The translations under genes were made by a program, and so were the position numbers. Below, piece after piece: positions 5,001 through 25,107 of a stretch of 25,107 nucleotides of DNA. Each line of letters starts with the position of its first letter. Position 1 is the stretch's first letter. This DNA comes from a virus, in IMG/VR virus record IMGVR_UViG_3300031862_000042, positions 1-25,107 of that record. One strand, 5' to 3'. The notes under the pieces were generated by a model that saw only the letters and a program-made list of their open reading frames with translations, did not search any database and was not told the origin of the DNA.

Positions 5001-5602
5001 ATTTTAAATATGATGAACGGCAAAAAAGATTTTATTGCATGAGCAAGCAACTATATGAATATGTTTTAAAATTGGGAAATTCTCGTACTAAATATATTCC
5101 CAGAGAATTCCTACAATTGTCTACAGATCATCTAAACCACTTATTGTTTGGTATGATGATTGGAGATGGGACTATTGATCCGTATGGAAATTATGTTAAA
5201 TATGATTCTGTCTCTAACCAACTAATTAATGATGTTCAAGAATTGCTTTTAAAAACAAATAGGTATGGAAATGTTCATGTTTATTTTTATCCAGAAATGA
5301 TTTCTCCAACTAATGGAAAGTTATATACGGATTGTAGTCCCTGTTGGAGGATATGGTTTAGTACTAGAAAGGGATATACTACAGTTAATAGAAAACGCAA
5401 TATAAAAGAAATAGATTATAAAGGTAAGATATATTGTGTGGAAGTACCAAATCATATAATTTACGTGCGACAAAATGGGAAAGGTATGTGGAGCGGAAAT
5501 AGTCTTCGCTATGTAACTATGAGCAACCTTGTGTATCGGCCTCCTGAATTTACAGTAAAGCCACGAATTCCAGAAGTGCCATCTCCAACGGGATATTTTT
5601 AA
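2099..5602 (+). CDS. terL: terminase large subunit precursor with two inteins
   Basis: This is the DNA-packaging motor ATPase and nuclease. The 1167-residue precursor loses residues 49-399 and 787-1134 as inteins to give 468 residues, a normal TerL length. The joined sequence restores Walker A (GGKR+SGKT). Walker B with the catalytic acid is ICWHDEEPP. The RNase H-like nuclease domain has metal-binding Asp in VLGIDPHD, LAIIDTSAS and, after splicing, DDHLLD+SLRY. No good SD precedes ATG 2099; a later Met at residue 30 (2186) would also precede Walker A, so the start is less sure than the rest. No small terminase subunit was recognised nearby. The function is certain from the motifs. Confidence 0.95.
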   Translation: MDIENLDIVTKRKLSESSKLLSYQPNNEKMLKFHQSNSKVRLIFGGKRCLPLDYKVLKSDGNWCEIDDLNIGDEILGVNLLTGIASPTKVINKSYSGRKLIYRIELTDGTSCRASSEHEFPVFSRSGKLDGHGNKSRPIIYNVEKLITTLGNSEARKKGLIQAREVIFGSNSSLRIPPYLLGALLGDGSLHSGFALVNKDEEVISRVNDLLIPLGCYLKQDKSDDLCWKIIASEKNYTSTGQKINQVKTEFRNLGLLVKSGDKFIPKLYLIASVNDRKELLAGLIDTDGSIDEFVSKSKQLAEDFCFLIRSLGGKATLSESYKTCQTGAIGRYWRVYWRLNCELPLSLKYKNPERNLNINYTRRVIKDIVPIGEEETVNITVDHPDHNFIGENWIVTGNSGKTVAGAIECIWAGLGIHPFLDYPKPPLNIRICSVDFHGIKDIILPVMREWLPSGSIRRYWAEDRILELTNGTQYDMKSDDQDLEKFEGVGRDICWHDEEPPQAIYQSNYMRTIFNRDGVPQNGKILITSTPLHGMSWIYDTLYDNPEAVPPYVEYWHVSIYDNPHLDKAAIDAILKDPAMKDNIEAAVFGKFVSKSGLIYKEFSEKHIIKPTSPIPKDWLIVLGIDPHDRNPHGVVFMGLTKENVWIVFDEILETCILSELVAKIKAKLGTRWPPNLAIIDTSASSPQSITGRSVKEELTQKYGLYVIDAHKDVLAGRLKVAGLLNPGTGKDGKPLLPKLYVQENCRQLIREFRHYCWSDWHSVRQRDTSNPKERPLKRDDHLLDCFSEQTQILTQSGWKEFKDIDKENEIVATLNPNNWNLEYQQITGYVEKEYEGKMLHCDGVTTEFCVTPTHRLYSSRQYNYKKAKNYKFELGTIDTFGIEFPIKKDAIWKGKEQLIFYLPDIEGNVNCRRFFEINMNDWLEFLGVYLAEGFSSKSHYQVLITQFPNSNYFESIKRILDRLPFNFKYDERQKRFYCMSKQLYEYVLKLGNSRTKYIPREFLQLSTDHLNHLLFGMMIGDGTIDPYGNYVKYDSVSNQLINDVQELLLKTNRYGNVHVYFYPEMISPTNGKLYTDCSPCWRIWFSTRKGYTTVNRKRNIKEIDYKGKIYCVEVPNHIIYVRQNGKGMWSGNSLRYVTMSNLVYRPPEFTVKPRIPEVPSPTGYF
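2243..3295 (+). mobile_element. intein 1 (LAGLIDADG-type) inserted in TerL Walker A motif
   Basis: The 351-residue intein runs from Cys49 to Asn399 of the precursor, with Ser as the +1 extein residue. Block A is CLPLDYKVL, block B carries the SSEH motif, and the C-terminal blocks read DHPDHNFIGENWIVTGN. The penultimate residue is Gly rather than the usual His. Two homing endonuclease motifs are intact: LLGALLGDGSL and LLAGLIDTDGSI. Removal joins GGKR to SGKT and recreates the P-loop, which fixes both boundaries. Splicing is therefore required for packaging ATPase activity. Confidence 0.93.
4457..5500 (+). mobile_element. intein 2 (LAGLIDADG-type) inserted in TerL nuclease motif
   Basis: The 348-residue intein runs from Cys787 to Asn1134 of the precursor, with +1 Ser. 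Block A is CFSEQTQILTQSGWK, block B has VTPTH, and the C-terminal blocks read VEVPNHIIYVRQNGK then MWSGN. The penultimate residue is again Gly. The endonuclease motifs are FLGVYLAEGFSS and LLFGMMIGDGTID, both with acidic residues in place. Excision joins DDHLLD to SLRY, the conserved last metal-binding motif of the terminase nuclease. Confidence 0.93.
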
Positions 5603-6041: not shown

Positions 6042-6387
6042 ATTTGGAGAGGAACTTCAAATGATTGCCATTTCATTTAAGAAACAGATGTCTCAACCTC
6101 TATGTGAAAAGATAACAGAGGAGATAGTTAATAAGATTGGTTTGCACTGTATTCCTGGTTTGATAAAGTATTCTTATCCTTATGAAAGTAAGGGGGGTAA
6201 GGGGTATACTCTAATACAACCCATTACAGAATCTATGGTGGCATGGGATATCTGGACTGATCATAAAGGAGGATACCTTTTTTTGATTTCATGTAAAAGA
6301 TTTAACCCAGAGGAAGTATTTGAGATTTTAAAGAGATATAAGTTAAAATTAATAAATTGTGAACCAATGGTGTTGAGATTGGTATGA
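6034..6387 (+). CDS. S-adenosylmethionine decarboxylase (SpeD)-like protein
   Basis: This 117-residue protein has the length and layout of prokaryotic AdoMet decarboxylase proenzymes, which self-cleave at Glu-Ser to make a pyruvoyl group and decarboxylate AdoMet for polyamine synthesis. The segment ITESMVAWDIW, then GGYLFLISCKRF, then a closing helix (EEVFEILKRY) lines up with the family's ESHxxxHT, GYxxxDxFTC and helix. Glu66-Ser67 match the cleavage site, and Cys87 is exactly 20 residues after the Ser, as in the family. However, the His after Ser is Met68 and the catalytic His five residues after Ser is Asp72, so canonical activity is doubtful. It overlaps both neighbours by a few nt and directly precedes an ATP-grasp gene. 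It may be a repurposed paralog. Confidence 0.55.
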   Translation: MSKFGEELQMIAISFKKQMSQPLCEKITEEIVNKIGLHCIPGLIKYSYPYESKGGKGYTLIQPITESMVAWDIWTDHKGGYLFLISCKRFNPEEVFEILKRYKLKLINCEPMVLRLV

Positions 6388-7703
6388 TTCAAAATTACCA
6401 GACTAAGTCTGTGTGCGTCTATGATCAAGGATTATTTGTTGAACTTGCTGTTCGTTTAGCTAAAGATTTTGGGCAAGTATATTACTTTAGCCCATGGGAA
6501 TCTGCATTTCCTAAATCCAATGATATTCTAATAGGTAAGGGCATTCCTGGAGTAGAGAGAGTTAATAATTTCTTTGACATTATAGATAATGTAGATTTAT
6601 TTGTTTTTCCCGACATATATTCTGGATCTATACAGAAATATCTTGTAGAGAAGTGTGGTAAGAGAGTTTGGGGAAGTCGTTATGGGGACTCCTTAGAGCT
6701 TTATAGAAAAGAAACTAAAGAATATATGAAGAGTATTGGAATTGATATTGGTCCTTATGAAGTAATAATTGGATTAAATGCTCTGCGGGAATACCTAAAA
6801 GAACATGAACATCAGTGGGTAAAAATTAGTTTCACTCGCGGAGACATGGAAACTTTTGAAGCAGAAAACTATGATACTATTGAACCCAAACTAGATGAGC
6901 TTGAACACAATCTTGGGGCCAAGAAAGAGATAATGGAATTTATAGTAGAGGATGCAATTCCAGCCGATATAGAAATTGGGTATGATGGGTACACAATAGA
7001 TGGGAAATTTCCATCTCAAGGAATGTGGGGATTGGAAATTAAAGACAAAGGATATATTGGAGTTTTCTCAACTTATGAAGATATGCCAAAGCAGATCTGG
7101 GATATCAACAAAAAGTTAGAACCCGCTTTACGTAATTATCAATATAGAAATTTCTTTAGTACAGAATTTAGGATGGGAAAAGACAAGATCCCATATGTAA
7201 TTGATCTTTGTTGTAGAGCTGGATCTCCCCCAAGTGAGCTTTACCAGAACATGTATACGAATTTAGCAGATATTCTATGGTTCGGAGCAGAGGGGAAAGT
7301 TATTGATCCCATACCCGCGGGTAAGTATGGGGCAGAAATGTTAATTCATTCGGCTTGGGCCGATAAGAACTGGCAGGCTGTAAACTTTCCAGAGAAGATT
7401 AGAGACCAAGTTAAATTTCGTAATTTGACTATCATCAATGGAAAGTATTATGTGGTTCCACAAGCCATTGGACTTCCAGAGATTGCTGCAGTAGTTGCTA
7501 TTGGAGATTCTGTAGAGGAAGTAATTAAAGGGGTTCAAGAACTAGCCAAACAAGTTACTGGTTATTATATTGATATTTTTCCAGACTGTTTGGATACTGC
7601 ACAGGAAGAGATTGATCGGCTTAAAAAAATGGGAATTACGTTAAAGCCTAGTGTGCGAAAAGCGTCTGATATAAAAATGAGCGATATATTAAAGAGGGTG
7701 TAA
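6384..7703 (+). CDS. ATP-grasp family protein (PurD/carboxylate-amine ligase-like)
   Basis: A 439-residue protein is coupled to the gene before by an ATGA overlap. The N-terminal ~100 residues look like an alpha/beta pre-ATP-grasp domain ending at RVWGSRYGDSLELYRKETKEY. A Lys in HQWVKISFTRGDM could bind nucleotide phosphates, and EFIVEDAIPADIEIGYDG gives the adenine-side strand. The block FFSTEFRMGKDKIPYVIDL followed by CRAGSPPSEL resembles the Mg-binding E...D..xR.G pattern of ATP-grasp ligases such as PurD. Such enzymes join a carboxylate to an amine through an acyl phosphate. The substrate is not visible: a nucleotide-pathway role, a peptide-modifying role or DNA-base modification are all open. 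Confidence 0.65.
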   Translation: MIQNYQTKSVCVYDQGLFVELAVRLAKDFGQVYYFSPWESAFPKSNDILIGKGIPGVERVNNFFDIIDNVDLFVFPDIYSGSIQKYLVEKCGKRVWGSRYGDSLELYRKETKEYMKSIGIDIGPYEVIIGLNALREYLKEHEHQWVKISFTRGDMETFEAENYDTIEPKLDELEHNLGAKKEIMEFIVEDAIPADIEIGYDGYTIDGKFPSQGMWGLEIKDKGYIGVFSTYEDMPKQIWDINKKLEPALRNYQYRNFFSTEFRMGKDKIPYVIDLCCRAGSPPSELYQNMYTNLADILWFGAEGKVIDPIPAGKYGAEMLIHSAWADKNWQAVNFPEKIRDQVKFRNLTIINGKYYVVPQAIGLPEIAAVVAIGDSVEEVIKGVQELAKQVTGYYIDIFPDCLDTAQEEIDRLKKMGITLKPSVRKASDIKMSDILKRV

Positions 7704-11528: not shown

Positions 11529-12264
11529 GGAAACCCTAATGATTTCAATAAGTTAGGTTGTGTCATTGTTCCTAAAATCTTGTCCGCCATATAAAAATAA
11601 AGCTCTCTTCAATGCTGGGAGAGCTCCAAAAAATCATTACCCCAAAGGAGGAAAAGTTAATGAACATGGAGCAAATCAGCAGGGAACAACTTGATAAAGA
11701 ACAGTTAGGGTGGCTTGCGGGAATTATTGATGGAGAAGGATGCATTAGTGTAGGAATTTATGATCGTAAATGCAAATCCTATCCAAATCATAAACGCAAT
11801 AAACCCTATTGTAAAACTCTTCAAACTACTTTAACAGTCTCCAATCATGATGTTAGGGTAATTAAAAGAGTTAGTGAGATTTACAAAAAATTAGGAGTTG
11901 GATTCTATTATAGTACAGCAAAAAAGAAAGATAATGGTACCTGGATAATAAATATTAATACTACGGGAAAAGGTACTACAAGGAAAGCTCTTTTGGCTGT
12001 ACGTGATCAATTAGTATCAAAAAAAGAACAGATGGAACTACTCCTACAATTAATTGAATATCGGGAAAGTTTAGGATATCAGGGAAAAGGAAGTCTTGGT
12101 ATTTGTAACGATCCCAAAATTCAATGGTATGTAAATCGCATAAGAGAACTCAAACATGAGTTTCCAAGTTTACCCTCAGAGACTAAGCGGAGAGCCAATC
12201 AGATTTTGGAATTCTGATTGATGATATAGTCCGATACATACTGGTGACAGTACGTTAACTTTTG
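11529..12264 (+). ncRNA. group I intron 1 in the capsid gene
   Basis: This 736-nt self-splicing intron is defined by pairing I could trace. P1: exon AUGGCGGAU (11520-11528) with guide sequence GUCCGCCAU (11582-11590), ending in U.G. P10: AUCUU just before the guide (11577-11581) with AAGAU at the start of exon 2 (12265-12269). P7: GACUA (12181-12185) with UAGUC (12227-12231). P8: CAATCAGA (12196-12203) with TCTGATTG (12213-12220). P9-type hairpin: TACTG-GTGA-CAGTA (12239-12252) with a GNRA loop. The last base is G (12264). An AGCTCTC/GAGAGCT stem lies at 11601-11625. Confidence 0.9.
11660..12217 (+). CDS. intron-encoded LAGLIDADG homing endonuclease (intron 1)
   Basis: I start at ATG 11660 (185 residues), 8 nt after AAGGAGG (11645-11651); the frame is open from ATG 11612. 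The single motif LGWLAGIIDGEGCISVG at about residues 16-32 keeps the catalytic acid (GEG), so it should act as a homodimer. It is followed by the strand/helix pattern of single-motif enzymes. The C-terminal residues and the TGA (12215-12217) are encoded inside the ribozyme P7/P8 region, so ORF and RNA core overlap. Its role is to cut intron-less capsid alleles so the intron is copied in by repair. Confidence 0.9.
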   Translation: MNMEQISREQLDKEQLGWLAGIIDGEGCISVGIYDRKCKSYPNHKRNKPYCKTLQTTLTVSNHDVRVIKRVSEIYKKLGVGFYYSTAKKKDNGTWIININTTGKGTTRKALLAVRDQLVSKKEQMELLLQLIEYRESLGYQGKGSLGICNDPKIQWYVNRIRELKHEFPSLPSETKRRANQILEF

Positions 12265-13287
12265 AAGATCTACTTATTGGAGCCTAACGCTGCACCTTTG
12301 TATGTGCTCGTCTCAAAGTTAAATAAACGAGTCGCGATCAATACGACCATTTATTGGCTCGAAGACGTTCTTAACCCTTCGTGGGCTACACTAAACGGTG
12401 CAACTTCAGCAGGAAGTTCTAACATCGTAGTTCACACTGGCGAGGGCTACTACTTTAACATATCAGATTTAGTTAAAGTCCCTAGCACAGGTGAGATTAT
12501 GTATGTTACTGCAGCCAGCGTTTCTACTGCCTTCTCGGCAACTAGAGGATATGCTGGATCTACTGCAGCTTCCGCTGCTGATGATTCTGATTTAGTGATT
12601 ATTGGTTCCGCATTTGAGGAAGGTTCAGCCTACAGCGCACTATCTACAGTTAGTACCAAAACGACTTCGGCAACCAACTATTTACAGATTTTCCGTAAAG
12701 CAGTTGAGATTACGAAGACTATGGCGAACGTAGAGCTGTATGGAGGAGAGGACCGACCTTATCAGAGAAAGAAGAAAGGTATCGAATTAATGAGAGACCT
12801 GGAAAGAACTTTCTTGTTTGGGAAACCATATCAAACCACGAGTGGCGTTACACATGCTCGTAGAATGTGCGGTGGAATTGAATCTTTTATTTCTACCAAC
12901 TCTACGGCAGCTGGCGGGGCTCTTACTGAAACAGAATTTGACGGGTTCTTAAGAACAGTTTTTAGATATGGGTCTTCTACCCGATATCTATTCTGCGCAC
13001 CTATCGTTCTGTCTGTTATATCACTGTGGGCACAAGGGAAGCTAAATATGTTCCCGAAGGACCGAACTTACGGTATAGCAATTTCTCAGTATCAGTCCGC
13101 ACACGGAACGGTCAACTTAGTTAAAGAGCTTATGTTAGAGAACGCAGGTGGGGTATCCAGTACTTCTTATTATGGGGGCTATGCATTCGCCATTGAGTTG
13201 GAGGATCTCATTTATCGTTACCTACAAAATAGGGACGTCCAAATGGAGACCGATATCCAGCATCCAGGTGATGATTACTACAAGGAT
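12265..13287 (+). CDS. major capsid protein, exon 2 (341 codons, main body)
   Basis: This exon encodes most of the shell protein. It starts KIYLLEPNAAPLYVLVSKLN, has an E-loop and insertion region with many Ala/Ser/Thr, then conserved helices (QIFRKAVEITKTMANVELYG, GIELMRDLERTFLFGKP, TRRM-like ARRMCGGIESFI). It ends with HPGDDYYKD at GAT 13285-13287. The full spliced protein is 391 residues (26+341+24), a plausible HK97-fold capsid length. It follows the scaffold gene. The reading frame does not stop at the exon end but continues through intron 2 into the endonuclease ORF, so unspliced RNA could yield a capsid-endonuclease fusion. HK97 fold is inferred from gene order and general pattern. Confidence 0.88.
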
Positions 13288-13991
13288 CAAATATTAGGTT
13301 CTTGTAAAAGGCTACTTAATCGGTGGATCTCCTTTTTTAAAAAGGACAATACCGAGGGAAGGAATTCGATCATACAGCATGTAACGGAGGTGTTTCCTAT
13401 GAAACTTAAAGATGCCGCCCGTTTGGGCATGTTAATTGAAACAGAAGGTTATATACAAGTTCTTAGACCATATAAGAGAAAAGGAGAAAATTGTTTGAGA
13501 TCTCCACATATAAATGTTAGTATAACTAATACTGATATGGGTCTCTTGAGTTGGGCAAAGATAGTTTTAGAAAAAGAACTTGGACATGAATTTAAAGTAT
13601 ATTCTGTTTCTAATTCAGATAAGATAAGGACAAAACAATGCTATCGTTTAGTAATTTCTAGATTTGACGATATTCAAAAAATATTGAATATAACAAGAGG
13701 TTTGATGCTAGGAATTAAGAAAACGATTGCAGACTTAATTTGTAGTTTTTTAAACTACAGAAAGACTTTTGAAAAGCCAAATGGATATGTTCATAACAAG
13801 ACATATTCAGAAGTATTTAATAGGCTAATCAATAAAGTAGACAAAATAAAACAAACGTATGATCAAATTTTGCCTGTAACGACTTTACGCAGCCCAGATC
13901 ATAATGATCAGAAGATAAAGTCTGAACTTATCAGTAATGATAAGAGGCCGATAGAAATATCTGGTCAGCACGTGAGTGCTTAACATTATTG
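13288..13991 (+). ncRNA. group I intron 2 in the capsid gene
   Basis: This 704-nt intron is bounded by a 9-bp P1: exon UACAAGGAU (13279-13287) with guide GUUCUUGUA (13298-13306), ending in U.G with one internal G.U. P7: GACTTTA (13881-13887) with TAAAGTC (13916-13922). P8: GATCA-TAA-TGATC (13897-13909). Three GNRA hairpins follow: CTTATCA-GTAA-TGATAAG (13927-13944), GATA-GAAA-TATC (13950-13961) and AGCAC-GTGA-GTGCT (13967-13980). The last base is G13991. Removal joins YYKD to QYLAEVG in phase 0. A P10 is weak. Confidence 0.9.
13399..13983 (+). CDS. intron-encoded LAGLIDADG homing endonuclease (intron 2)
   Basis: ATG 13399 lies 8 nt after GGAGG (13386-13390) and gives 194 residues. One LAGLIDADG-type motif, AARLGMLIETEGYIQV near residues 5-20, keeps the acidic residues (E, E). 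The SPHINVSITNTDMGLLSW segment and the later helices fit the single-motif family. The frame is the same as capsid exon 2 and stays open across P7, P8 and all three P9 hairpins, so about 35 C-terminal residues are encoded by ribozyme core. The TAA at 13981-13983 is 8 nt before the intron end. Confidence 0.85.
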   Translation: MKLKDAARLGMLIETEGYIQVLRPYKRKGENCLRSPHINVSITNTDMGLLSWAKIVLEKELGHEFKVYSVSNSDKIRTKQCYRLVISRFDDIQKILNITRGLMLGIKKTIADLICSFLNYRKTFEKPNGYVHNKTYSEVFNRLINKVDKIKQTYDQILPVTTLRSPDHNDQKIKSELISNDKRPIEISGQHVSA

Positions 13992-14178: not shown

Positions 14179-14589
14179 ATGAATAGAAAAGATACTGAAT
14201 CAGTAAATCCATTAATAAAATATATAGCAGGTCTTTTTGACGCGTTGGGTACTGTCAAAATAGAGACCCCGCGAAATGCGGAAAAACCATCTCTTTATAT
14301 TTGGATAACATCAAGACATTGGGAACTTATGGAGGTGCTCCAAAAGTTTGGAGCCTATGTTGGGCGCAAGGCCGATGGGCAATGGAGAGCCAAATGGAGA
14401 GATTATCATGCCTATAGGATTTTAAAATCAATCCTTCCTCACCTTATCATTAGGAAGGATCAAGCTGTAGTTGGAGTGGAGTTTTTGGAAAATCGAAAAC
14501 AAGATCCAACAGGCGAAGATGATGTGATTTACAGACTGCGTTTAAAACTTTTGAAAAAGGCTGATGAACATGAGTCTGAAAGGCTATAA
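14179..14589 (+). CDS. free-standing LAGLIDADG-like protein, probably inactive
   Basis: A 136-residue protein with a strong SD (AAAGGAGG, 14167-14174). Residues 13-25 read KYIAGLFDALGTV, a LAGLIDADG helix in which the catalytic acid of DADG/DGEG is replaced by Leu (DALG). The remainder (SLYIWITSRHWELMEVLQKF, then WRAKWRDYHAYRILKSILPH) follows the single-motif family layout. It lies 112 nt after the capsid stop and I could not find P1/P7 pairing around it, so it is not shown to be in an intron. With the acid lost it may be a decaying endonuclease or retain only a maturase or DNA-binding role. Confidence 0.75.
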   Translation: MNRKDTESVNPLIKYIAGLFDALGTVKIETPRNAEKPSLYIWITSRHWELMEVLQKFGAYVGRKADGQWRAKWRDYHAYRILKSILPHLIIRKDQAVVGVEFLENRKQDPTGEDDVIYRLRLKLLKKADEHESERL

Positions 14590-16840: not shown

Positions 16841-18103
16841 ATGTATTATCCCATAACACGGGCATCGTTGAATTTAACAAGAGCCTGCCCCCTAGCTTGC
16901 TCCTACTGCTTCACAAATGGGTGTAGATCGGGGGATTTAAGCGAAGAAATGGGGAAACGGGCTATAGATTTCTTATTTGAGGGGGCTTCCCAATGCCAAG
17001 GAAGAGACAGAAATGTAGAGATAAGTTGGTGGGGGGGAGAGCCTCTGTTAAAATGGAGCCTATTAAAGAAGTTAACCCTATATGCAGAAGATGTATCAAG
17101 AAAGAGTGCCATTCCTGTATCTTTTGGTGGCACGACTAATGGTCTTCTACTTACTCCAGATAAGTTTGATTTTCTTGATTCTCACCATACATTCTTTATG
17201 GTTAGTTTTGATGGAACCAAGGAAACCCATGATTATTATAGGAAGTCGGCCCAAGGAGTTGGATCTCATAAGATTGTAGAAAGAAATTTGAAGGCGGCAT
17301 TAATACGATGGCCATTTTATAGAACAAGAATGGGGCCTTTTGTAGAGCGTATAGATCATTTTTTTGAGGATTGTAAATATACTTTTGATTTAGGTGTAAC
17401 CTATTTAATGTTTTCTCCAGTGTATGAAGGTAATTGGACAGAGGAGAAGTGGAAGATATTTGAAGATCAGTGTATGAAAGTTGTGGATTATATGGCGGAA
17501 TTACGAGCACAGGGTAGAAAAGTTGATATAGAACATTTTAGATCCTATACAGGAAAAGACAATAGTAGATGGGCTTGTGGGGCTGGGCGCCAATATGTTG
17601 GAGTGGATATTGATGGTGCTATTTATCCCTGTCACCGTTACAATAAGTTCTCTGATAATAGACCTTGGCAAGAGAAGGAAGTTTGCATTGGGCATGTTGA
17701 ACATGGGATTACGAGACCAGAATTTCGACAGATATTTATTGATGGGGACCATAGTCTATGTGGAAAATGTCCCAGATTGGAGGATACACCTTGTCATGGG
17801 TCCTGTCCTGCTGTGAATTACGATTTTACGGGAAATCCAATGAAACCTCATTTAGGTGCCTGTAGATATGTCGAGATGCAAAAACGAGTATCAAAATATT
17901 ATAAGGAGAAAATTATGGATAAGGAAGAAGGGGTGCAAACAAGTTGTATGCCCTATAATGGGCCAGATAGATCCTGTGATTGTTATAATGCCAATTACAC
18001 TGGTCCAATTAAACCAAAAAAATTAACAGATGAAGTAATTGCCATGCTGTTACAAGATTTGAATGCCAGAGTGGCAAAATTAGAGGCAAAGTCAAATGGG
18101 TGA
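16841..18103 (+). CDS. radical SAM/SPASM enzyme 1 (anSME-like)
   Basis: This 420-residue enzyme should cleave AdoMet at a 4Fe-4S cluster to form a 5'-deoxyadenosyl radical. The cluster motif is CX3CX2C (Cys16, 20, 23) in LTRACPLACSYCF, and GGEP at 65-68 follows ISWW. A SPASM-type region provides auxiliary-cluster Cys: C246, C264, then C307, C310, C318, C322 and C341, as in sulfatase-maturase and peptide-modifying enzymes. The C-terminal tail contains an extra Cys set (C369, C379, C381; SCDCYNANYTG), then a coiled coil (DLNARVAKLEAK). The gene starts a chain of overlapping genes ending in the fibre. SPASM enzymes usually modify peptides or proteins; the substrate here is not shown. Confidence 0.9.
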   Translation: MYYPITRASLNLTRACPLACSYCFTNGCRSGDLSEEMGKRAIDFLFEGASQCQGRDRNVEISWWGGEPLLKWSLLKKLTLYAEDVSRKSAIPVSFGGTTNGLLLTPDKFDFLDSHHTFFMVSFDGTKETHDYYRKSAQGVGSHKIVERNLKAALIRWPFYRTRMGPFVERIDHFFEDCKYTFDLGVTYLMFSPVYEGNWTEEKWKIFEDQCMKVVDYMAELRAQGRKVDIEHFRSYTGKDNSRWACGAGRQYVGVDIDGAIYPCHRYNKFSDNRPWQEKEVCIGHVEHGITRPEFRQIFIDGDHSLCGKCPRLEDTPCHGSCPAVNYDFTGNPMKPHLGACRYVEMQKRVSKYYKEKIMDKEEGVQTSCMPYNGPDRSCDCYNANYTGPIKPKKLTDEVIAMLLQDLNARVAKLEAKSNG

Positions 18104-18914
18104 GAAGCCAAAATCTAGAACAACCATTCCAATGAATAAGCATACTAGTGGGTTACATGATGGACATAGACAGCTTATTAAATTAGCCCATACAATTGGA
18201 GATCGAGTTGTAGTCCCAATGTTATTTAATGTACGAGATTGGTACGCCTACCTCATTGATGGAATTGTTCCTCAAGTAAAGGAAACCAATATTGATAAGC
18301 AATTAAATGAATTGACTGTTTATAATACGCATCCAATGGTTATGCCTTTCTATGAAATTCCTTTGGAAAAGAGATTAGAATGGAGGCATAAGGCCGAAGG
18401 AGTATTGGAGAAATTTCAGCAATATCTTTGTACCCCCTCTTATCAAAGATTTGCTCTTGCATTAGCCATGGATTTATGCCGACAAGTTGAGCGGTCTAAG
18501 GGCAATGTTAAATATATGGTAAAAGGTCCAGAATGGCATTCATTTTTGATTAAAGCCATCAAACCGTTATTGGGAAGTCCTGTAGAAGTTATAATCTATA
18601 ATAAGATTGAAAAGCATAAAGAAAGTAAAATTAAATTACAAGGTGGTTTATCTAAAATAGATCCTGTACATTATCCTGAAATTTATAGGTTAAAATCTGT
18701 AATGGAAGGAGCAAAGGATCGGTTTATAATTGGTAGTAATGAGAAGTTGGTTGAAGAATTGAACGCTGCCTATTATAGTAGGCCTTGGAAGATTGTTAGT
18801 ATTACAGTATTTGAAGGTGGAATAATTCCAGGAAGATTGGAAACGATGCAATTTATGTTTCCTAATCCCAAAGGTGGATCAATTATACTTGAAGAAGTAA
18901 ATTATGAATTATAA
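18096..18914 (+). CDS. HxGH nucleotidylyltransferase-like protein (PanC/cytidylyltransferase-like)
   Basis: A 272-residue protein overlaps the radical SAM stop by 8 nt. Residues 14-31 (NKHTSGLHDGHRQLIKLA) carry the HxGH motif (HDGH, 21-24) of nucleotidylyltransferases and PanC-type ligases, with the following strand VVVPMLFN as expected for a Rossmann-like fold. The characteristic second motif of PanC (MSSRN-like) is not visible, so it may be a divergent adenylating or nucleotide-transfer enzyme. The C-terminal half (KGPEWHSFLIKAIKPLLGSP, then WKIVSITVFEGGIIPGRLE) is unassigned. In this setting it could activate a small substrate for the neighbouring enzymes. Confidence 0.5.
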   Translation: MGEKPKSRTTIPMNKHTSGLHDGHRQLIKLAHTIGDRVVVPMLFNVRDWYAYLIDGIVPQVKETNIDKQLNELTVYNTHPMVMPFYEIPLEKRLEWRHKAEGVLEKFQQYLCTPSYQRFALALAMDLCRQVERSKGNVKYMVKGPEWHSFLIKAIKPLLGSPVEVIIYNKIEKHKESKIKLQGGLSKIDPVHYPEIYRLKSVMEGAKDRFIIGSNEKLVEELNAAYYSRPWKIVSITVFEGGIIPGRLETMQFMFPNPKGGSIILEEVNYEL

Positions 18915-19638
18915 AGAACTTAGTCAATTTGTTAGATTCATTCCAAAAGACGGATTAACAATCTTTCCTGATCTTGTCTATAGGGATGTAAATGATATTT
19001 CTGAAAAAGAAAGATTCGCTACTAAGAAGATATTTGGGGAAGATCCAGAATACACGGTGTTATCTAATATGGGAAGTTATGTTCCTAAAGGTACAGAATA
19101 TAGGATACGACTTTGCACTTATGTTTATAAGGGAACAGACCATATTGGAAATATAATGTTTACTGAATTTTTGGATAATCCGAATGGATATGAGAAGAAA
19201 GATTTCCATTATGTAAAGTGGATTGAAGAAAAGTATAGGCATACAAAGTATTCTAGGTATATAATTGGTGATTTAATTCATATTCTATTTAAATCTGGAA
19301 TAGCAAATAGATTGTATTCATATATGCCAGCAAAAAATACCCAAAGCACTTTCTTTTTTGATCAAATTGGGCAGGATGCGCCTTGTGTGAGCAAGCGATA
19401 TCCTTCGGATAGTCCAGATGTTCAAAAATATATCCTCTCGAAAGGTGTTGTTGCAGATTTTCCAGTTAAATATGTATTAATTGAATTTAATGGGGATATA
19501 TACCGAGATATGGATTTGGAAGAATATCTGATGGCATCCCCTAATAGAAAAATAGAAGATGTTCGTAAGTGGTTGGTTGAAATGAACAAGGCCGCTAAAA
19601 TGGTAAAGGATACTTTTTATGGATGCTCTTCAAGTTAA
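18904..19638 (+). CDS. GNAT acetyltransferase-like protein
   Basis: A 244-residue protein overlaps its upstream neighbour by 11 nt and the next gene by 20 nt. The middle region resembles a GNAT fold: strand DHIGNIMFTEFLD, then HYVKWIEEKYRHTKYSRYII leading into GDLIHILFKSGIANRLYS (motif A position), then NTQSTFFFDQIGQ (the N..s..FF..G motif B). GNATs transfer acyl groups from acyl-CoA, often to amines on small molecules or proteins. The pyrophosphate loop is not canonical (RxxGxG is not clear), so acyl transfer is tentative. Its place in the coupled cassette suggests a modification role. Confidence 0.42.
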   Translation: MNYKELSQFVRFIPKDGLTIFPDLVYRDVNDISEKERFATKKIFGEDPEYTVLSNMGSYVPKGTEYRIRLCTYVYKGTDHIGNIMFTEFLDNPNGYEKKDFHYVKWIEEKYRHTKYSRYIIGDLIHILFKSGIANRLYSYMPAKNTQSTFFFDQIGQDAPCVSKRYPSDSPDVQKYILSKGVVADFPVKYVLIEFNGDIYRDMDLEEYLMASPNRKIEDVRKWLVEMNKAAKMVKDTFYGCSSS

Positions 19639-20623
19639 TGTCTACCTCACAAGCCATTGTACACGATATGGGCGTAATAGATGTTCAGATTGTTATTATC
19701 CTATAGATGGCAAGATGTCGCGGCATATGGCAATGGACATTGGGGTATGGATTAATAAATTAGCTAAAATAGAAAATGTAAAGCTATTTAAAGCTCATTT
19801 CCTAGGGGGAGAACCTCTTTTAAATCCAGATGCTTTATTAATGTTGTTAATATTACTGCACGATTTGCCTTCTCATCCCGATGGGAAGTTTGTGATCTTT
19901 ACGAATGGGGATCTATTAGATGAGTATATCCTAAAAGTTTTAAAACGTTGGCAAGTTAAAATATTATTGAATCCAACTAATTTACCTTTAGATGAAGTTA
20001 GAAGAAGAATGGAATTAATAAAGTCCGTCTGTGGCGGTGTGAGTCTTGCAATCGTTGCCGATATGGCCAATCTAGCACGCTTGAGAGATTTGGCCGAGTT
20101 GGCGGTTGAATTCAATGGCCATATTAGAATCAACCGCCTCTACCACGGCGGTTCGATTTCTGGATATGTTGAGGAATTTGGACGACAAATGCACAAAGTA
20201 TTTGATGTGTTACTAAGTTCAAAATTTGTAATGTGGCCTAATTTCATATTAGAAAGCACTTATCCCCTATGGGAAGGGCCAAAGAATTGTCATTCCTGTG
20301 GCAAATGGCTTTTAATAATAGATCCTAATGGGGATATACGCAGTTGTAATGCAGATATGGATACCAAAATTGGGCATATTTCCACACATACAAGGATGTC
20401 GGATTTTAAATTTCCACAACGATGGTCAAGTAAGAACTTAGAAGAGTGCAAAGGATGTGAATGGGCTAATGGTGGATGGTGCCAAGGAGGATGTCCCCTA
20501 AGCCGTAAATTGGCATTTGGAACTTATAATCACAAAACCCCATTTTGCGAAGTTTATAAAACTCTTTTCCCACGATTGCAGGAGTTAGTTACGAGGTGGA
20601 AAGAAAAGCATGGTTTGGAATAA
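19619..20623 (+). CDS. radical SAM/SPASM enzyme 2
   Basis: A 334-residue enzyme overlaps the GNAT-like gene by 20 nt and the first fibre gene by 14 nt. The cluster motif is CX7CX2C (Cys14, 22, 25: HCTRYGRNRCSDCYYP) instead of the common CX3CX2C. AHFLGGEPLLNP gives the GGE motif at 63-66. The C-terminal SPASM-like Cys set is C224, C227, C243, C277, C280, C288, C292 and C310, with CQGGCPL typical of SPASM. It is distinct from enzyme 1 rather than a recent duplicate. The family predicts radical chemistry on a peptide or protein; its genetic coupling to a fibre gene makes that fibre family the first candidate substrate, by inference. Confidence 0.85.
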   Translation: MDALQVNVYLTSHCTRYGRNRCSDCYYPIDGKMSRHMAMDIGVWINKLAKIENVKLFKAHFLGGEPLLNPDALLMLLILLHDLPSHPDGKFVIFTNGDLLDEYILKVLKRWQVKILLNPTNLPLDEVRRRMELIKSVCGGVSLAIVADMANLARLRDLAELAVEFNGHIRINRLYHGGSISGYVEEFGRQMHKVFDVLLSSKFVMWPNFILESTYPLWEGPKNCHSCGKWLLIIDPNGDIRSCNADMDTKIGHISTHTRMSDFKFPQRWSSKNLEECKGCEWANGGWCQGGCPLSRKLAFGTYNHKTPFCEVYKTLFPRLQELVTRWKEKHGLE

Positions 20624-21305
20624 AGACTATCCTACATCTACAGTATCCCCATCTGCCAGCACGCTTGGTTTAACCGGAAATTGGAAAGCTTTAGAAGATT
20701 GGTGGGGAGTAGAACATACTACCTTAACTAGCGCCTCAAGTGGACATCATACTGCCCAAAATATAAGTTTGGTTTGTGTGGCTGCCACTTCTGCCATATC
20801 GGCTCTAAGTTCTCCTGGAACAGGAGCATTGGCTTATGATACCACTAAAGGTGAACTAGAGGTATACCGAACAGCCGGTTGGGGTAAATTAACCGAATCC
20901 TATTGGTCTCGTGTTAGAACAGTATTTCTTTCTGCATCCATTTCGACAGCTACATGGACAAAGTTGACGGAGAAACGTACTGTCGAAGAAGATCAATACG
21001 ATACTTTGAGTGAATTTGCTAGCAGTAGTGGAAGTGCAAGTATAAAAGCAACTGGAACTTATTTTGTACTTGGTACATGCAGATTTCCAACAACATCAAA
21101 TAATTATTTGGTAGGGGTTGCTATATATAAAAACGGGTCTGCCGTAGCAGTTCATCGGGGATATGGGGCAGGAGTGCGAAGTACAGAAGTTTTTGATATT
21201 CTATCTCTTACGGCAGGAGATAGACTTGAGGTTTATTGTTATCATAACGCCGGAAGCAATATAACCATTGTTGGCGGAAGTTTACAGTTTACTAAATTAT
21301 CATAG
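20610..21305 (+). CDS. C1q-like tail fibre protein A
   Basis: A 231-residue protein starts inside the radical SAM 2 gene (14-nt overlap, GAGGTG SD). The N-terminal module (MVWNKDYP, then WKALEDWWGVEH, SGHH) is shared with the two fibre genes that follow. Residues about 60-100 form a connector (SPGTGALAYDTTKGELEVYR, then GWGKL) typical of phage fibre structures. The C-terminal ~130 residues, starting SRVRTVFLSAS and including VGVAIYKNGSAV and LSLTAGDRLEVYC, match a C1q/TNF-like jelly roll, a trimeric receptor-binding fold. It lacks the Cys array. Confidence 0.72.
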   Translation: MVWNKDYPTSTVSPSASTLGLTGNWKALEDWWGVEHTTLTSASSGHHTAQNISLVCVAATSAISALSSPGTGALAYDTTKGELEVYRTAGWGKLTESYWSRVRTVFLSASISTATWTKLTEKRTVEEDQYDTLSEFASSSGSASIKATGTYFVLGTCRFPTTSNNYLVGVAIYKNGSAVAVHRGYGAGVRSTEVFDILSLTAGDRLEVYCYHNAGSNITIVGGSLQFTKLS

Positions 21306-21314
21306 GGTGATTTA

Positions 21315-22034
21315 ATGGTTTGGAATAAAAGTGTGCCAGTTACTGGTACAAATATAACTAGTGCTCCAAATATTTTTGAGGGTAATTGGACAGCTTTGGA
21401 GGGCATAACTGGGGAGGAGCATTATACATTTACAAATGCCCTATCTGGCCGCCATAAACCAGGGGAATGGCCTGTATTCTTTTCAAGTACCACTTCAGGT
21501 ATTACTGCCGTAACCTCTCCCGGAAGCGGAGCATTGGCCTGGGATACTACTTTAGGATTAGGCAAAATATATGATGGAACTTCTTGGGGCCAAGTCAGCA
21601 TGTTGGTTCATAGTAGGGTTAGTGCATATCGAAATGGGGATAAGACATTGACCACTACGGATGAAATAGTAGTGCCCTTTGATACAAAGACATTTGATTC
21701 TTTAAGTGAATTTAGTACCACAACATATACATTTACAACTACGACTGCTGGATATTATTTAATAAAAGCACAATTATCAATTATTCCATCAAAAGGCGGA
21801 ATAGATTATGATATGAGCGTTAAACATACAGATGCCGCAAGTGCTACAATACTACAAACACATGCATATAGATATTCAATGTCTACAGATGAAATGGTGA
21901 TGGAAAAGGTTACACTTCTTCCATTATCAGTTGGAGATAGGATATCAATTATTATACAACCAGGTACTGCAAATGCTGGAGTAATAGCTGGTGGAGCAGA
22001 TAGAACATTTTTGGCTATTTATAGGGCGTCATGA
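21315..22034 (+). CDS. C1q-like tail fibre protein B
   Basis: A 239-residue paralog of the preceding protein, 9 nt downstream, with TAGGGTGA as SD. It repeats the N-terminal module (MVWNKSVP, NWTALEGITGEEH, SGRHKPG), the connector (SPGSGALAWDTTLGLGKIYD), and a jelly-roll end (SRVSAYRNGDKTL, FDTKTFDSLSEFST, AGYYLIKAQLSII, LLPLSVGDRISIII, FLAIYRAS). It is a clean, uninterrupted version of the C1q-like domain, and so serves as the reference for the insertion seen in the next gene. It likely forms a trimeric receptor-binding head. Confidence 0.72.
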   Translation: MVWNKSVPVTGTNITSAPNIFEGNWTALEGITGEEHYTFTNALSGRHKPGEWPVFFSSTTSGITAVTSPGSGALAWDTTLGLGKIYDGTSWGQVSMLVHSRVSAYRNGDKTLTTTDEIVVPFDTKTFDSLSEFSTTTYTFTTTTAGYYLIKAQLSIIPSKGGIDYDMSVKHTDAASATILQTHAYRYSMSTDEMVMEKVTLLPLSVGDRISIIIQPGTANAGVIAGGADRTFLAIYRAS

Positions 22035-22080
22035 ATTATGAATAAGATTGTTTTAAATTATTTAAAGGGTGAAAAATAAT

Positions 22081-24279
22081 ATGGCTACTTGGCGCAAGAG
22101 TTATCCAAAACCTGCAACCAAGGTAAGTGATTTACCAGAATATCATAGTGATAACTTTAATGTGATAGATAGTGCATATGAGTTAGAGCATTTTGGACCC
22201 GCATCTGCCAATGCAACTTCAGGACAGCACCGGCCTGGAGTATGTGGGGGATTAAAAGAGGGGACTACTGCCGCATTAACGGCCATTACAGCTTCAGCAG
22301 GCTCAATTGCATTTGATCAAACAAAAGGACAATTGCAGCGTTATAGTGGAAGTGCGTGGGGGGATGTGGGAGTTTCCCAATGGTCTAGAGTGCGGGCATA
22401 TAGATCCGCAAATGTGAATGTTACAGCCGGAGCTTCTGCTGCCACATTAACTGCCGATACTGAAACATATGATACTCTTGGCGAATATGATAATACATCT
22501 GGTATATTTACGGCTTTAGCAAGTGGTTATTATTTGGTTATTAGCCAAATTACAATGATTGCATCCGCTGCTGTTCAAGACACATCTGGTGCCTGTTCAG
22601 CTACTGGGAATGTTGGAACTCCTGATTGGACATGTGTTGGGGCGTCTGCAAATTGGGATGCAATAAATGAATATCCAACAGCGGTTGATACAGACTATAA
22701 TATAACATCAACTTTAAGCGCTACAGATGTTGTAAGTGGCTCTTTGCCTTCCGTTCCTTCTGGATCGGCTCCAATTTCGGTGAATGTATATTATAGACTA
22801 AAGGGGACAGGATGCATTTGTAATGCTACTTGTGATGGGTATACTGCATGTAGTTGTGATAGTACTTGTGATGGGTATACTGCATGTAGTTGCAATGCTA
22901 CTTGTTATAACCAATCCTGTAGTTGTAATGCTACCTGTTATGGGTATACTGCATGTAGTTGTAATAGTACTTGTGATGGGTATACAGGATGTAGTTGTGA
23001 TAATACTTGTTATAACCAAGCTTGTGTTTGTAATGCCAGCTGCTATGGATATACCGCATGTAGTTGTAATAATACTTGTTATGGATATACGGCCTGCAGT
23101 TGCAATGCTACTTGTTATAACCAATCCTGTAGTTGCAATACTACCTGTTACGGATATTCAGCCTGTAGTTGTAATAGTACCTGTTATGGATATACAGGAT
23201 GTAGTTGTAATAGTACCTGTTACGGACAAGGTTGCAGTTGCAATGCTACATGCTATGGATATTCAGCCTGTAGTTGTAATATTGTCTGTTATGCTGAGGG
23301 GAAAGGAGGATGCACTTGTTATAGTGCATGCGATGGATATTCGGCCTGTAGTTGCAATGCTACTTGTTATAACCAATCCTGTAGTTGTAATGCCAGTTGT
23401 TATGGGTACACGGCCTGTAGTTGTAATAATGCGGCATATGGATATACAGGATGTAGTTGTGATAATGCTTGTTATAACCAATCCTGTAGTTGCAATGCTA
23501 CCTGTTACGGATATTCAGCCTGTAGTTGTAATAATACTTGTTATGGGTATACGGCCTGTAGTTGTAATAATGCGGCATATGGATCTGGTTGTCCTTGCAA
23601 TGCTACCTGTTATGGATATTCAGCCTGTAGTTGTAATAATACTTGTTATGGGTACGTCTGTAGTTGTAATAGTACCTGTTACGGACAAGGTTGCAGTTGC
23701 AATGCTACATGCCATGGATATTCAGCCTGTAGTTGTAATAGTACCTGTTATGGATATACAGGATGTAGTTGTAACAATACCTGCTATAACCAATTTGAAA
23801 CACGAGTGGTTCCTTTATTAAGAGTCAATAGTACTAATTATGGGGGGGCATTGACAACTCCAACTTCTGCATTTACTGATTATTATAATTCATGGAGTGC
23901 TAATCCCGCAACTGGTCTGGATTGGACAACAACATCTATAGCTACAATTTCTGGATTTGGGTATGAAACTAAAATGGCCTCTGCTGCATGTTCAGCCGAA
24001 ATAAGCCAGGCCTACTTACAACTTGGCTGGTGGCCTCCTCGTCCAGTAATTGGAATTTATATTTATAAGAACGGCACTCTATTAGAGTCGGCATATCAAC
24101 CTATAATGAATGCTGGAACTACTACATACCAAGCAGCATCAATAATGTCTGTGGTTTATTTATCAGCTGGACAAACTTTGGATATCAGATATACAAAGAC
24201 AATGGATAATGATATTGTGTATGGGAATGCGACATATACTTACCTGGCTATACACCGATTGGCTGGAAATTGTTTATAA
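22081..24279 (+). CDS. tail fibre protein C with giant Cys-rich array inserted in a C1q-like domain
   Basis: I start at ATG 22081 (732 residues), 8 nt after AAAGGGTGA; the frame also opens at GTG 22069. Residues 1-100 hold the shared module (ELEHFGPASANATSGQHRPG) and connector. About 101-165 is the first half of the C1q-like fold (SRVRAYRSANVN, TETYDTLGEYDNT, GYYLVISQITMI). A beta-sandwich begins near 180 (DWTCVGASANWDAINEYP, then ISVNVYYRLKG). The array of 28 Cys units spans 245-571. The sandwich resumes (RVVPLLRVNSTNYGGALTT, then WSANPATGLDWT) to about 650, and the C1q-like fold finishes (GIYIYKNGTLLES, then LSAGQTLDIRYT, YLAIHRLAG). The protein follows two radical SAM genes and is the main candidate for their modification. 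Confidence 0.82.
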   Translation: MATWRKSYPKPATKVSDLPEYHSDNFNVIDSAYELEHFGPASANATSGQHRPGVCGGLKEGTTAALTAITASAGSIAFDQTKGQLQRYSGSAWGDVGVSQWSRVRAYRSANVNVTAGASAATLTADTETYDTLGEYDNTSGIFTALASGYYLVISQITMIASAAVQDTSGACSATGNVGTPDWTCVGASANWDAINEYPTAVDTDYNITSTLSATDVVSGSLPSVPSGSAPISVNVYYRLKGTGCICNATCDGYTACSCDSTCDGYTACSCNATCYNQSCSCNATCYGYTACSCNSTCDGYTGCSCDNTCYNQACVCNASCYGYTACSCNNTCYGYTACSCNATCYNQSCSCNTTCYGYSACSCNSTCYGYTGCSCNSTCYGQGCSCNATCYGYSACSCNIVCYAEGKGGCTCYSACDGYSACSCNATCYNQSCSCNASCYGYTACSCNNAAYGYTGCSCDNACYNQSCSCNATCYGYSACSCNNTCYGYTACSCNNAAYGSGCPCNATCYGYSACSCNNTCYGYVCSCNSTCYGQGCSCNATCHGYSACSCNSTCYGYTGCSCNNTCYNQFETRVVPLLRVNSTNYGGALTTPTSAFTDYYNSWSANPATGLDWTTTSIATISGFGYETKMASAACSAEISQAYLQLGWWPPRPVIGIYIYKNGTLLESAYQPIMNAGTTTYQAASIMSVVYLSAGQTLDIRYTKTMDNDIVYGNATYTYLAIHRLAGNCL
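22813..23793 (+). repeat. in-frame Cys-rich tandem repeat, 28 units (327 residues)
   Basis: Units are 12 or 11 residues with consensus CSCN(A/S/N)TCYGY(T/S)(A/G) or the shorter CSCNATCYNQS. Cys occupies positions 1, 3 and 7; 82 of 327 residues are Cys. Two units replace the third Cys with Ala (CSCNNAAYG). Units are grouped 12+12+11 into a 35-residue (105-nt) super-repeat, with about nine copies; the fifth has an extra unit and a GKGG insert. At DNA level the repeats differ by synonymous changes (TGT/TGC, AAT/AAC), so the array is old enough to have drifted and is kept by protein-level selection. Confidence 0.95.
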
Positions 24280-24288
24280 GGTGATTAA

Positions 24289-25107
24289 ATGGGAGTTTAT
24301 AACCAATTAATATTAACAAACTTTACTCTCGGAATGTATGATGTTGATCAATTATCACGAACACAATATCCCTCTGGAGCGTGTGTGGATTGTGATAACG
24401 TTATATTTACTCCCGCTGGTGCCCTTACAAAGAGACCAGGATATGAACAATTATCATCTACAAGAGTAAATTCAGCTGCAATAACAAAGATTTTTCAATG
24501 GACAGATGTAGATAATGGTCAGCACTCATTTGCTTTTACTTGCGCATCAGCCACTACGGCCCCTACTTCTGCTGTTAGTGCTGCAGTTTATCTTGTTGAT
24601 ACTACTGGAACAGAAGCGGCATATATAAAATTAACATTGCCTGCTAATGGTGTTAATTGGAAGCCAACATTATTAGATGGGATATCATGTGCATCTTGGG
24701 AAGGATCGGCAATATTCACTCATAGTGGAAATTCAAAATATATGATGGCCTATAATACTGGTACTTCCGCAGTTGCAGTGAGCGGGGGTACTGGGACTCC
24801 AAGCGGGGCAAAAGTTGTGTGTGCATGGGGAAATTTCTTATTTGCAGGGAACGTGCTAGTTGATGGTGTAAGGAATGGTTCACGGCTTATGTGGACATAT
24901 CCTGGGGATGTAGATAATTGGCCGGCTGCTTATTATATTGATTTAGATCCAGATGATGGGGATGAGATTAGGTCCATTGTAAATTTTAAAAATAATATAT
25001 ATGTGTTTAAGAGATATAAAATGTGGGCCATACATTGGGTTGGCGGTGTATCACTATTTCAAGAGGAGAGAATAGCCCAGGATGTTGGAATGGTTGGTCC
25101 AAATGCT
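24289..25107 (+). CDS. beta-propeller-like tail hub protein (partial, runs off window)
   Basis: ATG 24289 follows AAGGTGA. 273 residues are visible and the frame is open at the right edge. The start pattern (LGMYDVDQLSR, PSGACVDCDNVIF, GALTKRPGYEQL) is that of phage tail proteins with a propeller or hub fold such as the P22 gp10/T7 gp12 type. Later WTYPGDVDNWPAA, IRSIVNFKNNIYVFKRYKMW and a following LFQEERIAQDVG repeat the expected blades. It should form part of the tail tube or hub that carries the fibres encoded upstream. The family is judged from pattern only and the C-terminus is missing. Confidence 0.65.
   Translation, partial: MGVYNQLILTNFTLGMYDVDQLSRTQYPSGACVDCDNVIFTPAGALTKRPGYEQLSSTRVNSAAITKIFQWTDVDNGQHSFAFTCASATTAPTSAVSAAVYLVDTTGTEAAYIKLTLPANGVNWKPTLLDGISCASWEGSAIFTHSGNSKYMMAYNTGTSAVAVSGGTGTPSGAKVVCAWGNFLFAGNVLVDGVRNGSRLMWTYPGDVDNWPAAYYIDLDPDDGDEIRSIVNFKNNIYVFKRYKMWAIHWVGGVSLFQEERIAQDVGMVGPNA

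Follow-up and report, generated by a model that had tools for sequence, protein, structure and literature searches.

A cysteine array in a phage tail-fibre-type protein is genetically linked to radical SAM/SPASM enzymes, its probable cross-linking maturases

The 25,107-base window analysed here is the complete virus record IMGVR_UViG_3300031862_000042. On its plus strand it encodes a 732-amino-acid (aa) tail-fibre-type protein (22081–24279; ATG at 22081, with a GTG at 22069 in the open reading frame (ORF) list) that carries a tandem cysteine array and lies downstream of two radical S-adenosylmethionine (SAM) enzyme genes. The array spans residues 245–571, an exact match to 22813–23793 when recomputed from the translation, and comprises 28 units of the pattern CxC[ND]xxC[Y]xxxx. 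The first-pass annotation of this DNA had counted 327 residues, 82 Cys, 28 units and a 12/11 period, all of which recomputation reproduced exactly; Cys thus makes up 25.1% of the array, compared with 5 Cys in the remaining 405 residues of the protein. Unit spacings of 12, 12 and 11 residues repeat throughout, apart from one spacing of 14 and one run of 11, 11. Cys occupies positions 1 and 3 in 28/28 units each and position 7 in 26/28, the other two units having Ala there, while position 4 is N or D in 27 of the 28 and position 8 is Y in 23, D in 4 and H in 1. The unit takes the form CxCNxTCYGYTA, with no TxT column, and Tyr accounts for 12.7% of the residues. With a single Lys and no Arg, the array would be nearly invisible to trypsin-based virion proteomics.

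Several features argue that the frame is genuine and that the array did not arise by chance. Its Cys codons mix TGT (64) with TGC (18) and show two non-synonymous losses, which indicates purifying selection on the translated frame; third-base variation is also seen for Thr, Gly, Ala and Tyr, and both frame and motif were found again in independent phages. Tandem Repeats Finder reports periods of 36, 105 and 210 bp, the second of which corresponds to a 35-residue super-repeat. No significant match to the array was found in Pfam, NCBIfam or PDB, and PHROGs gave weak matches only. A tblastn search with the array protein against 50,697 phage records returned no match, and a scan of 84,980 GTDB genomes with the exact array pattern gave 14 stretches, all of them simple repeats or unrelated Cys-rich ORFs. 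AlphaFold2 returned a low-confidence, solenoid-like pattern with two short strands per unit (predicted local distance difference test score, pLDDT, 50–64 where the array is modelled best; predicted TM-score, pTM, 0.31); the model of the whole protein was too poor for a fold search.

The first-pass annotation had placed the array in a phage tail fibre, and the gene context bears this out. Immediately upstream lie two array-less paralogous fibre-type proteins, one of 231 aa (20610–21305, plus strand; weak match to phrog_15750) and one of 239 aa (21315–22034, plus strand) that matches the tail protein family phrog_13286 (4.4e-5) and is weakly C1q-like (E=0.0025, below the cut-off). Downstream, a virion structural protein (24289–25107, plus strand; phrog_3287, 4.4e-19) runs off the end of the record. 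When the array protein is aligned to the two paralogues, residues ~165–690, array included, form a single insertion in the weakly C1q-like domain. The array is therefore doubtful as the 'shaft' that had been proposed; judging from this alignment, it is probably a projection out of a globular fibre domain. The portal protein of the window is similar to portals of short-tailed phages, Pf-WMP3 among them (22% identity).

The array gene closes a cassette, a neighbourhood that the first-pass annotation did not connect with it; the two radical SAM/SPASM genes precede it within one gene run, at distances of 1.5 and 4 kb. The more distant one, rSAM1 (16841–18103, plus strand), is nearest to PapB/SCIFF-type peptide thioether maturases (NF047865, 6.5e-62; PF04055, 2.8e-10; CteB structure 5wgg, 2.1e-26) and also matches TIGR04115 (4.7e-33). 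Its SPASM score in Pfam is just under the cut-off (19.3 against 21.5), and its set of SPASM cysteines (C246, C264, C282, C307, C318, C322 and C341) is invariant among nine rSAM1 relatives. The nearer gene, rSAM2 (19619–20623, plus strand), matches PF04055 (1.5e-7) and the SPASM model TIGR04085 above cut-off. The cysteines of the CX3CX2C radical SAM motif (C16, C20 and C23) are invariant in 21/21 array-linked radical SAM proteins, and all of these proteins match peptide maturase models, several models in number and including cyclophane-forming ones. Between rSAM1 and rSAM2 lie an HxGH-motif protein (18096–18914, plus strand), weakly assigned as nucleotidylyltransferase-like (TIGR00125, E=0.0054, below the cut-off) with H21, G23 and H24 invariant in 6 sequences, and a GNAT-fold acyltransferase-like protein (18904–19638, plus strand; AlphaFold2 pLDDT 78.6, pTM 0.79), whose model retrieves acyl/acetyltransferases among the matches listed by Foldseek in the PDB (best E=1e-6). 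The order rSAM1, HxGH, GNAT, rSAM2, fibre, fibre, array fibre is kept in four phages (the window, G002, G003 and G005), the fibre parts of the array protein being likewise kept in the latter three. Partial cassettes occur in G006 (array, GNAT-family ORF, rSAM2) and in G004/G014 (array, HxGH, rSAM1); in G001 the array adjoins the HxGH gene and the radical SAM gene is ~22 kb off.

To quantify this association, IMG/VR was scanned with two DNA patterns for two successive array units plus one stricter pattern, and in-frame arrays were sorted by eye on their translations from out-of-frame simple repeats, which served as controls. Among the matches listed, roughly a dozen further viral contigs have the array, on largely unrelated carriers, and a radical SAM gene was present at 15/21 array loci compared with 1/156 other loci (Fisher p=3.8e-16), as scored with a profile built from 21 array-linked radical SAM proteins that come partly from the same contigs as the loci tested. 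The sole positive 'other' locus, L121, has the same ORF length, Cys count and radical SAM score as the L062 array; most likely it duplicates that array and escaped the sorting. Five of the six array loci without a local radical SAM gene (L113, L165, L175, L151 and L079) sit in contigs that have one elsewhere, ~22–25 kb off for L165 and L175. A Pfam-wide count found radical SAM genes in 11/12 array contigs (in the remaining one, G006, PF04055 failed to pick up a homologue of rSAM2) and in 8/30 control contigs, which are larger and at least three of which, among those eight, hold arrays themselves.

The association also holds in the reverse direction. Scanning with the rSAM1 profile gave 17 close loci, 15 of them in contigs with an array; the scan added L241, L242, L243, L249 and L250, none of them picked up by the array patterns (CxCNxxCY arrays in L241, L242, L249 and L250), and the profile loci L239 and L248 are short fragments with no array. 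A scan baited with the downstream structural gene (24289–25107) recovered three array phages, all with radical SAM genes; 29 distant loci had neither a radical SAM gene nor an array of the CxCNxxCY kind, and a whole-contig search of array-less structural relatives found radical SAM genes in 0/18 contigs. Since the carriers are mostly unrelated once the array is masked, the array and the radical SAM enzyme are what they share. Taken together, an enzyme–substrate link between the two is circumstantially well supported.

The enzymes themselves carry array-like units. After the last SPASM cysteine, rSAM1 relatives often have segments such as CVCYNACYNEG and CICNNMCYLEG, and the C-terminal tail of rSAM1 in the window contains CDCYNANY (residues 379–386; 17975–17998, plus strand). 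We scored the tails with a position-specific scoring matrix built from 118 array units, using 2000 shuffles of the same protein as the null; because the shuffles preserve composition and not local Cys clustering, the scores are supportive rather than decisive. Relatives' tails reach 21.6 bits, with 0/2000 shuffles as good, and the rSAM1 tail of the window scores 11.4 bits, with 11/2000 as good; about half of the radical SAM proteins tested have such units. The tail unit may function as a self-substrate, as a mimic for docking or as a segment that binds a cluster.

Looser radical SAM and pattern matches extend the class to other array types: CNCNYCT (L258, L260 and L263–L265), CNSDCACN (L042, L045, L072 and L079), KCKC (L277) and poly-Cys (L268), with Asn plus Asp raised in many of the arrays, though not in all. 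The Peptidase_S74 intramolecular chaperone is cleaved off mature fibres, and in L277 and L045 the array stops two or three residues before this domain, so that in these two the array would form the distal tip. In L242 and L250 the array is embedded in a protein whose sequence reads as J-like tail-tip, with no Pfam match. Human-gut records retrieved by radical SAM similarity include a phage with a CxxxC array (L356) and a CXXX-like repeat near a TatC-like gene that looks bacterial (L357); most of the others have no array. Further Cys-rich ORFs accompany some of these systems. The phage at L207, which has a large array, also encodes a stand-alone mini array of 97 aa (L207:2750–3040) near an extra GNAT-family-like ORF and radical SAM genes, and contig G011 has two further Cys-rich ORFs, with 57 and 46 Cys, by a second radical SAM gene (L212:15784–17685). 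In L113 (1899–3464) a Hint-like segment (CFPAGTPVTMADGS), with no Pfam match, directly follows the array and is perhaps another self-cleaving cap. Long collagen-like SGYSGISGYSG repeats occur in neighbour proteins of array phages (L001:4672–6891 and L211:3152–5731).

A related arrangement exists in cultured phages. rSAM1 matches radical SAM proteins of Campylobacter Firehammervirus phages at about 26% identity, and CP220 gp140, 2.2 kb upstream of the matching radical SAM gene gp136, carries a CDCNYCT-type array (in part CDCNYCTCDCNYCTC). The array gene is encoded over its full length in all 15 matching Firehammervirus records of the collection, and a nearby radical SAM protein is annotated or matched in the records inspected, being split into two ORFs in CP21. 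The paper describing CP220 reported 11–12 radical SAM proteins, regarded this as very unusual and proposed that they act in metabolism, and the link to an array is not made there (PMC2853527). Also in CP220, gp166 (L314:8107–8532) is CxxC-rich, with 20 Cys in 60 residues, and lies 0.8 kb from the radical SAM gene gp163; in phage Phass-1, read in genetic code 15, a Cys-rich ORF (L315:16138–16659) lies directly downstream of a radical SAM gene.

On balance we favour a reading, likelier than its rivals together, in which the array is a repeated substrate of the co-encoded radical SAM/SPASM maturases, which would introduce multiple Cys cross-links, most likely thioethers, and so stiffen an exposed tail projection. 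That the enzymes act on the array is very probable; that the bond is a thioether is a reasonable expectation, held less firmly; and whether all this serves to make the adsorption tip stiff and stable is an even call. Once translated in the host cytoplasm, the array protein would be acted on by rSAM1, probably together with rSAM2, and radical chemistry would form repeated bonds along the array between the sulfur of Cys and carbon atoms in nearby residues. If PapB, which links Cys to Asp/Glu, is a guide, the near-invariant Asn/Asp at position 4 would be the most likely partner. The product would be a non-reducible, covalently stapled projection from the tail-fibre domain, facing outside, that would withstand proteolysis and unfolding and give the tip that touches the receptor its shape. 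Tail fibres assemble in the reducing cytoplasm, where thioethers form readily and disulfides do not. A 2-Da loss is common to both kinds of bond, and only resistance to reduction tells them apart. Since PapB tolerates Cys-Xn-Asp with n from 0 to 6, losing 2 Da per link (PMC9413430), a C1–N4 or C3–N4 link in the array is plausible by this analogy.

A number of points weigh against this proposal. The regular C-x3-D/E spacing is absent from the array, in which Asn/Asp appears as C1-x2-N4 and C3-N4. rSAM1 scores 209.7 bits against NF047865, under the equivalog cut-off of 340, and has only 15 residues before C16, leaving no room for an N-terminal leader-binding (RRE) domain. The nearest radical SAM gene is ~22–25 kb from the array in two contigs (G001 and G009), L134 has none in its 7.6 kb, its array lying at the contig end, and the array contigs are not fully independent, the loci sharing ancestry in part. 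In the wider class, some array-linked radical SAM proteins are distant from rSAM1, and Asn/Asp is absent from the KCKC and poly-Cys arrays, so a single chemistry may not account for every array. As chemistry, the cross-link is a prediction from the genes.

The model preferred in the first-pass annotation, a disulfide-stapled beta-solenoid of the Tenebrio antifreeze type with the radical SAM enzymes serving something else, is no longer favoured, and we regard it as unlikely. The 12-residue period, a distance of 6 between Cys1 and Cys7 that the Tenebrio motif shares and the two short strands per unit in the AlphaFold2 model all speak for it, and a released virion can oxidise. However, the array and the antifreeze protein have no sequence relation, the model confidence is low, and other enzyme-linked arrays are spaced differently, by 7 residues (CDCNYCT), by 2 residues (KCKC) or as CxxxC. 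Cytoplasmic assembly disfavours dozens of disulfides, and this model leaves both the radical SAM linkage and the array-like enzyme tails unexplained. Enzyme-made thioethers, which the same annotation had listed as another model, have by contrast gained strong circumstantial support from the maturase genes that neighbour the array in the window and in most other array phages.

Equally improbable in our view is that the radical SAM enzymes modify the array in some other way (sactionine bonds from Cys to the alpha carbon, cyclophane or Tyr-linked bonds, epimerisation or C-methylation), with Cys left free or metal-bound. SPASM and related enzymes perform all of these reactions, the array is rich in Tyr, and the linked enzymes match cyclophane-forming models among others; yet Cys is the one residue common to every array type, and the best-scoring models for rSAM1 include the Cys-based PapB and SCIFF. 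A metallothionein-like array binding metal or Fe-S clusters, with the enzyme tails providing extra cluster ligands, is a good deal less likely still: CxC motifs, a quarter Cys and similar units beside SPASM clusters in radical SAM C-termini fit it, but Pfam gave no metallothionein match to the array proteins, the Tyr content and near absence of charge are unlike metallothioneins, which have few or no aromatics, and no radical SAM enzyme would be needed. Least probable of all is that the enzymes are auxiliary metabolic genes lying near tail genes by chance or through shared anaerobic ecology, since, although phages often carry radical SAM genes, as the control contigs illustrate, controls seldom have one near the matched site, some of the positive controls hold arrays, the genes are co-absent from array-less relatives and the enzymes are of peptide-maturase types; linkage and co-absence disfavour this simple explanation.

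Elsewhere in the window, a terminase-like ORF (2099–5602) reads as split by two intein-like insertions with endonuclease-type segments, and small endonuclease-like ORFs are read at 72–821, 11612–12217 and 14179–14589. The long ORF at 12262–13983 has a capsid-like start and a homing-endonuclease-like end, a sequence reading that suggests an interrupted major capsid gene. A 439-aa ORF (6384–7703) shows weak likeness to the ATP-grasp ligase PurD (E 0.11).

Among open-licence PubMed Central (PMC) papers we found no described phage fibre with such an array, in agreement with the first-pass annotation, no literature joining phage tails, Cys arrays and radical SAM, and no radical-SAM-modified virion protein; the enzyme chemistry is of a known kind and its setting unreported. 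Some phages, we propose, probably weld their tail tips chemically. Opinion may fairly be divided on the broader idea that this is a widespread, so far unrecognised mode of virion maturation, in which peptide-type radical SAM enzymes of phages covalently staple the Cys arrays of tail-tip proteins with many different folds. The array would be a mobile module that passes between podo-, sipho- and myovirus tails, and the enzymes would bear a copy of their own substrate unit. If true, it would assign a function to radical SAM genes that are commonly classed as auxiliary metabolism, among them those that have been a puzzle in Campylobacter phages since 2010, provide thioether-type maturases with a family of natural substrates that reach hundreds of residues in length, and suggest a way in which phages can make their tail tip non-reducible. 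The presence of a related system in cultured phages makes the proposal testable by mass spectrometry of existing virions.

Among known systems that bear comparison with the cassette, the SCIFF thioether maturase CteB modifies a short bacterial peptide with six Cys. Its structure is the nearest solved one to rSAM1 by sequence, the alignment beginning at CteB residue 100, so that the N-terminal region of CteB is missing from rSAM1. PapB and its substrate PapA share with our system the radical SAM/SPASM type, the nearest NCBIfam model and a Cys-rich repetitive substrate in which Cys/Asp thioethers are made (PMC9413430); they differ in that rSAM1 falls below the equivalog cut-off without an N-terminal leader-binding domain, and in that here a long array without C-x3-D sits in a structural tail protein, within a phage cassette that includes the GNAT and HxGH genes. 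The CXXX-repeat peptides and their maturases (TIGR04115 and TIGR04119) likewise place a short regular Cys period beside a radical SAM enzyme, but have Cys at each fourth residue, rather than at positions 1, 3 and 7 of 12, and are not tail proteins. Tenebrio antifreeze proteins match the array in their 12-residue period and in a Cys pair spaced by 6, whereas the array has no homology to them, lacks the TxT face of TCTxSxxCxxAx, carries three Cys per unit with CxC in an alternating 12/11 period and belongs to a protein assembled in the cytoplasm. Finally, Firehammervirus CP220 offers a cultured parallel, with 11–12 unexplained radical SAM proteins and a CDCNYCT array ~2 kb from one of them (PMC2853527), and differs from the window in its 7-residue array type and in its radical SAM protein, only 26.6% identical to rSAM1.
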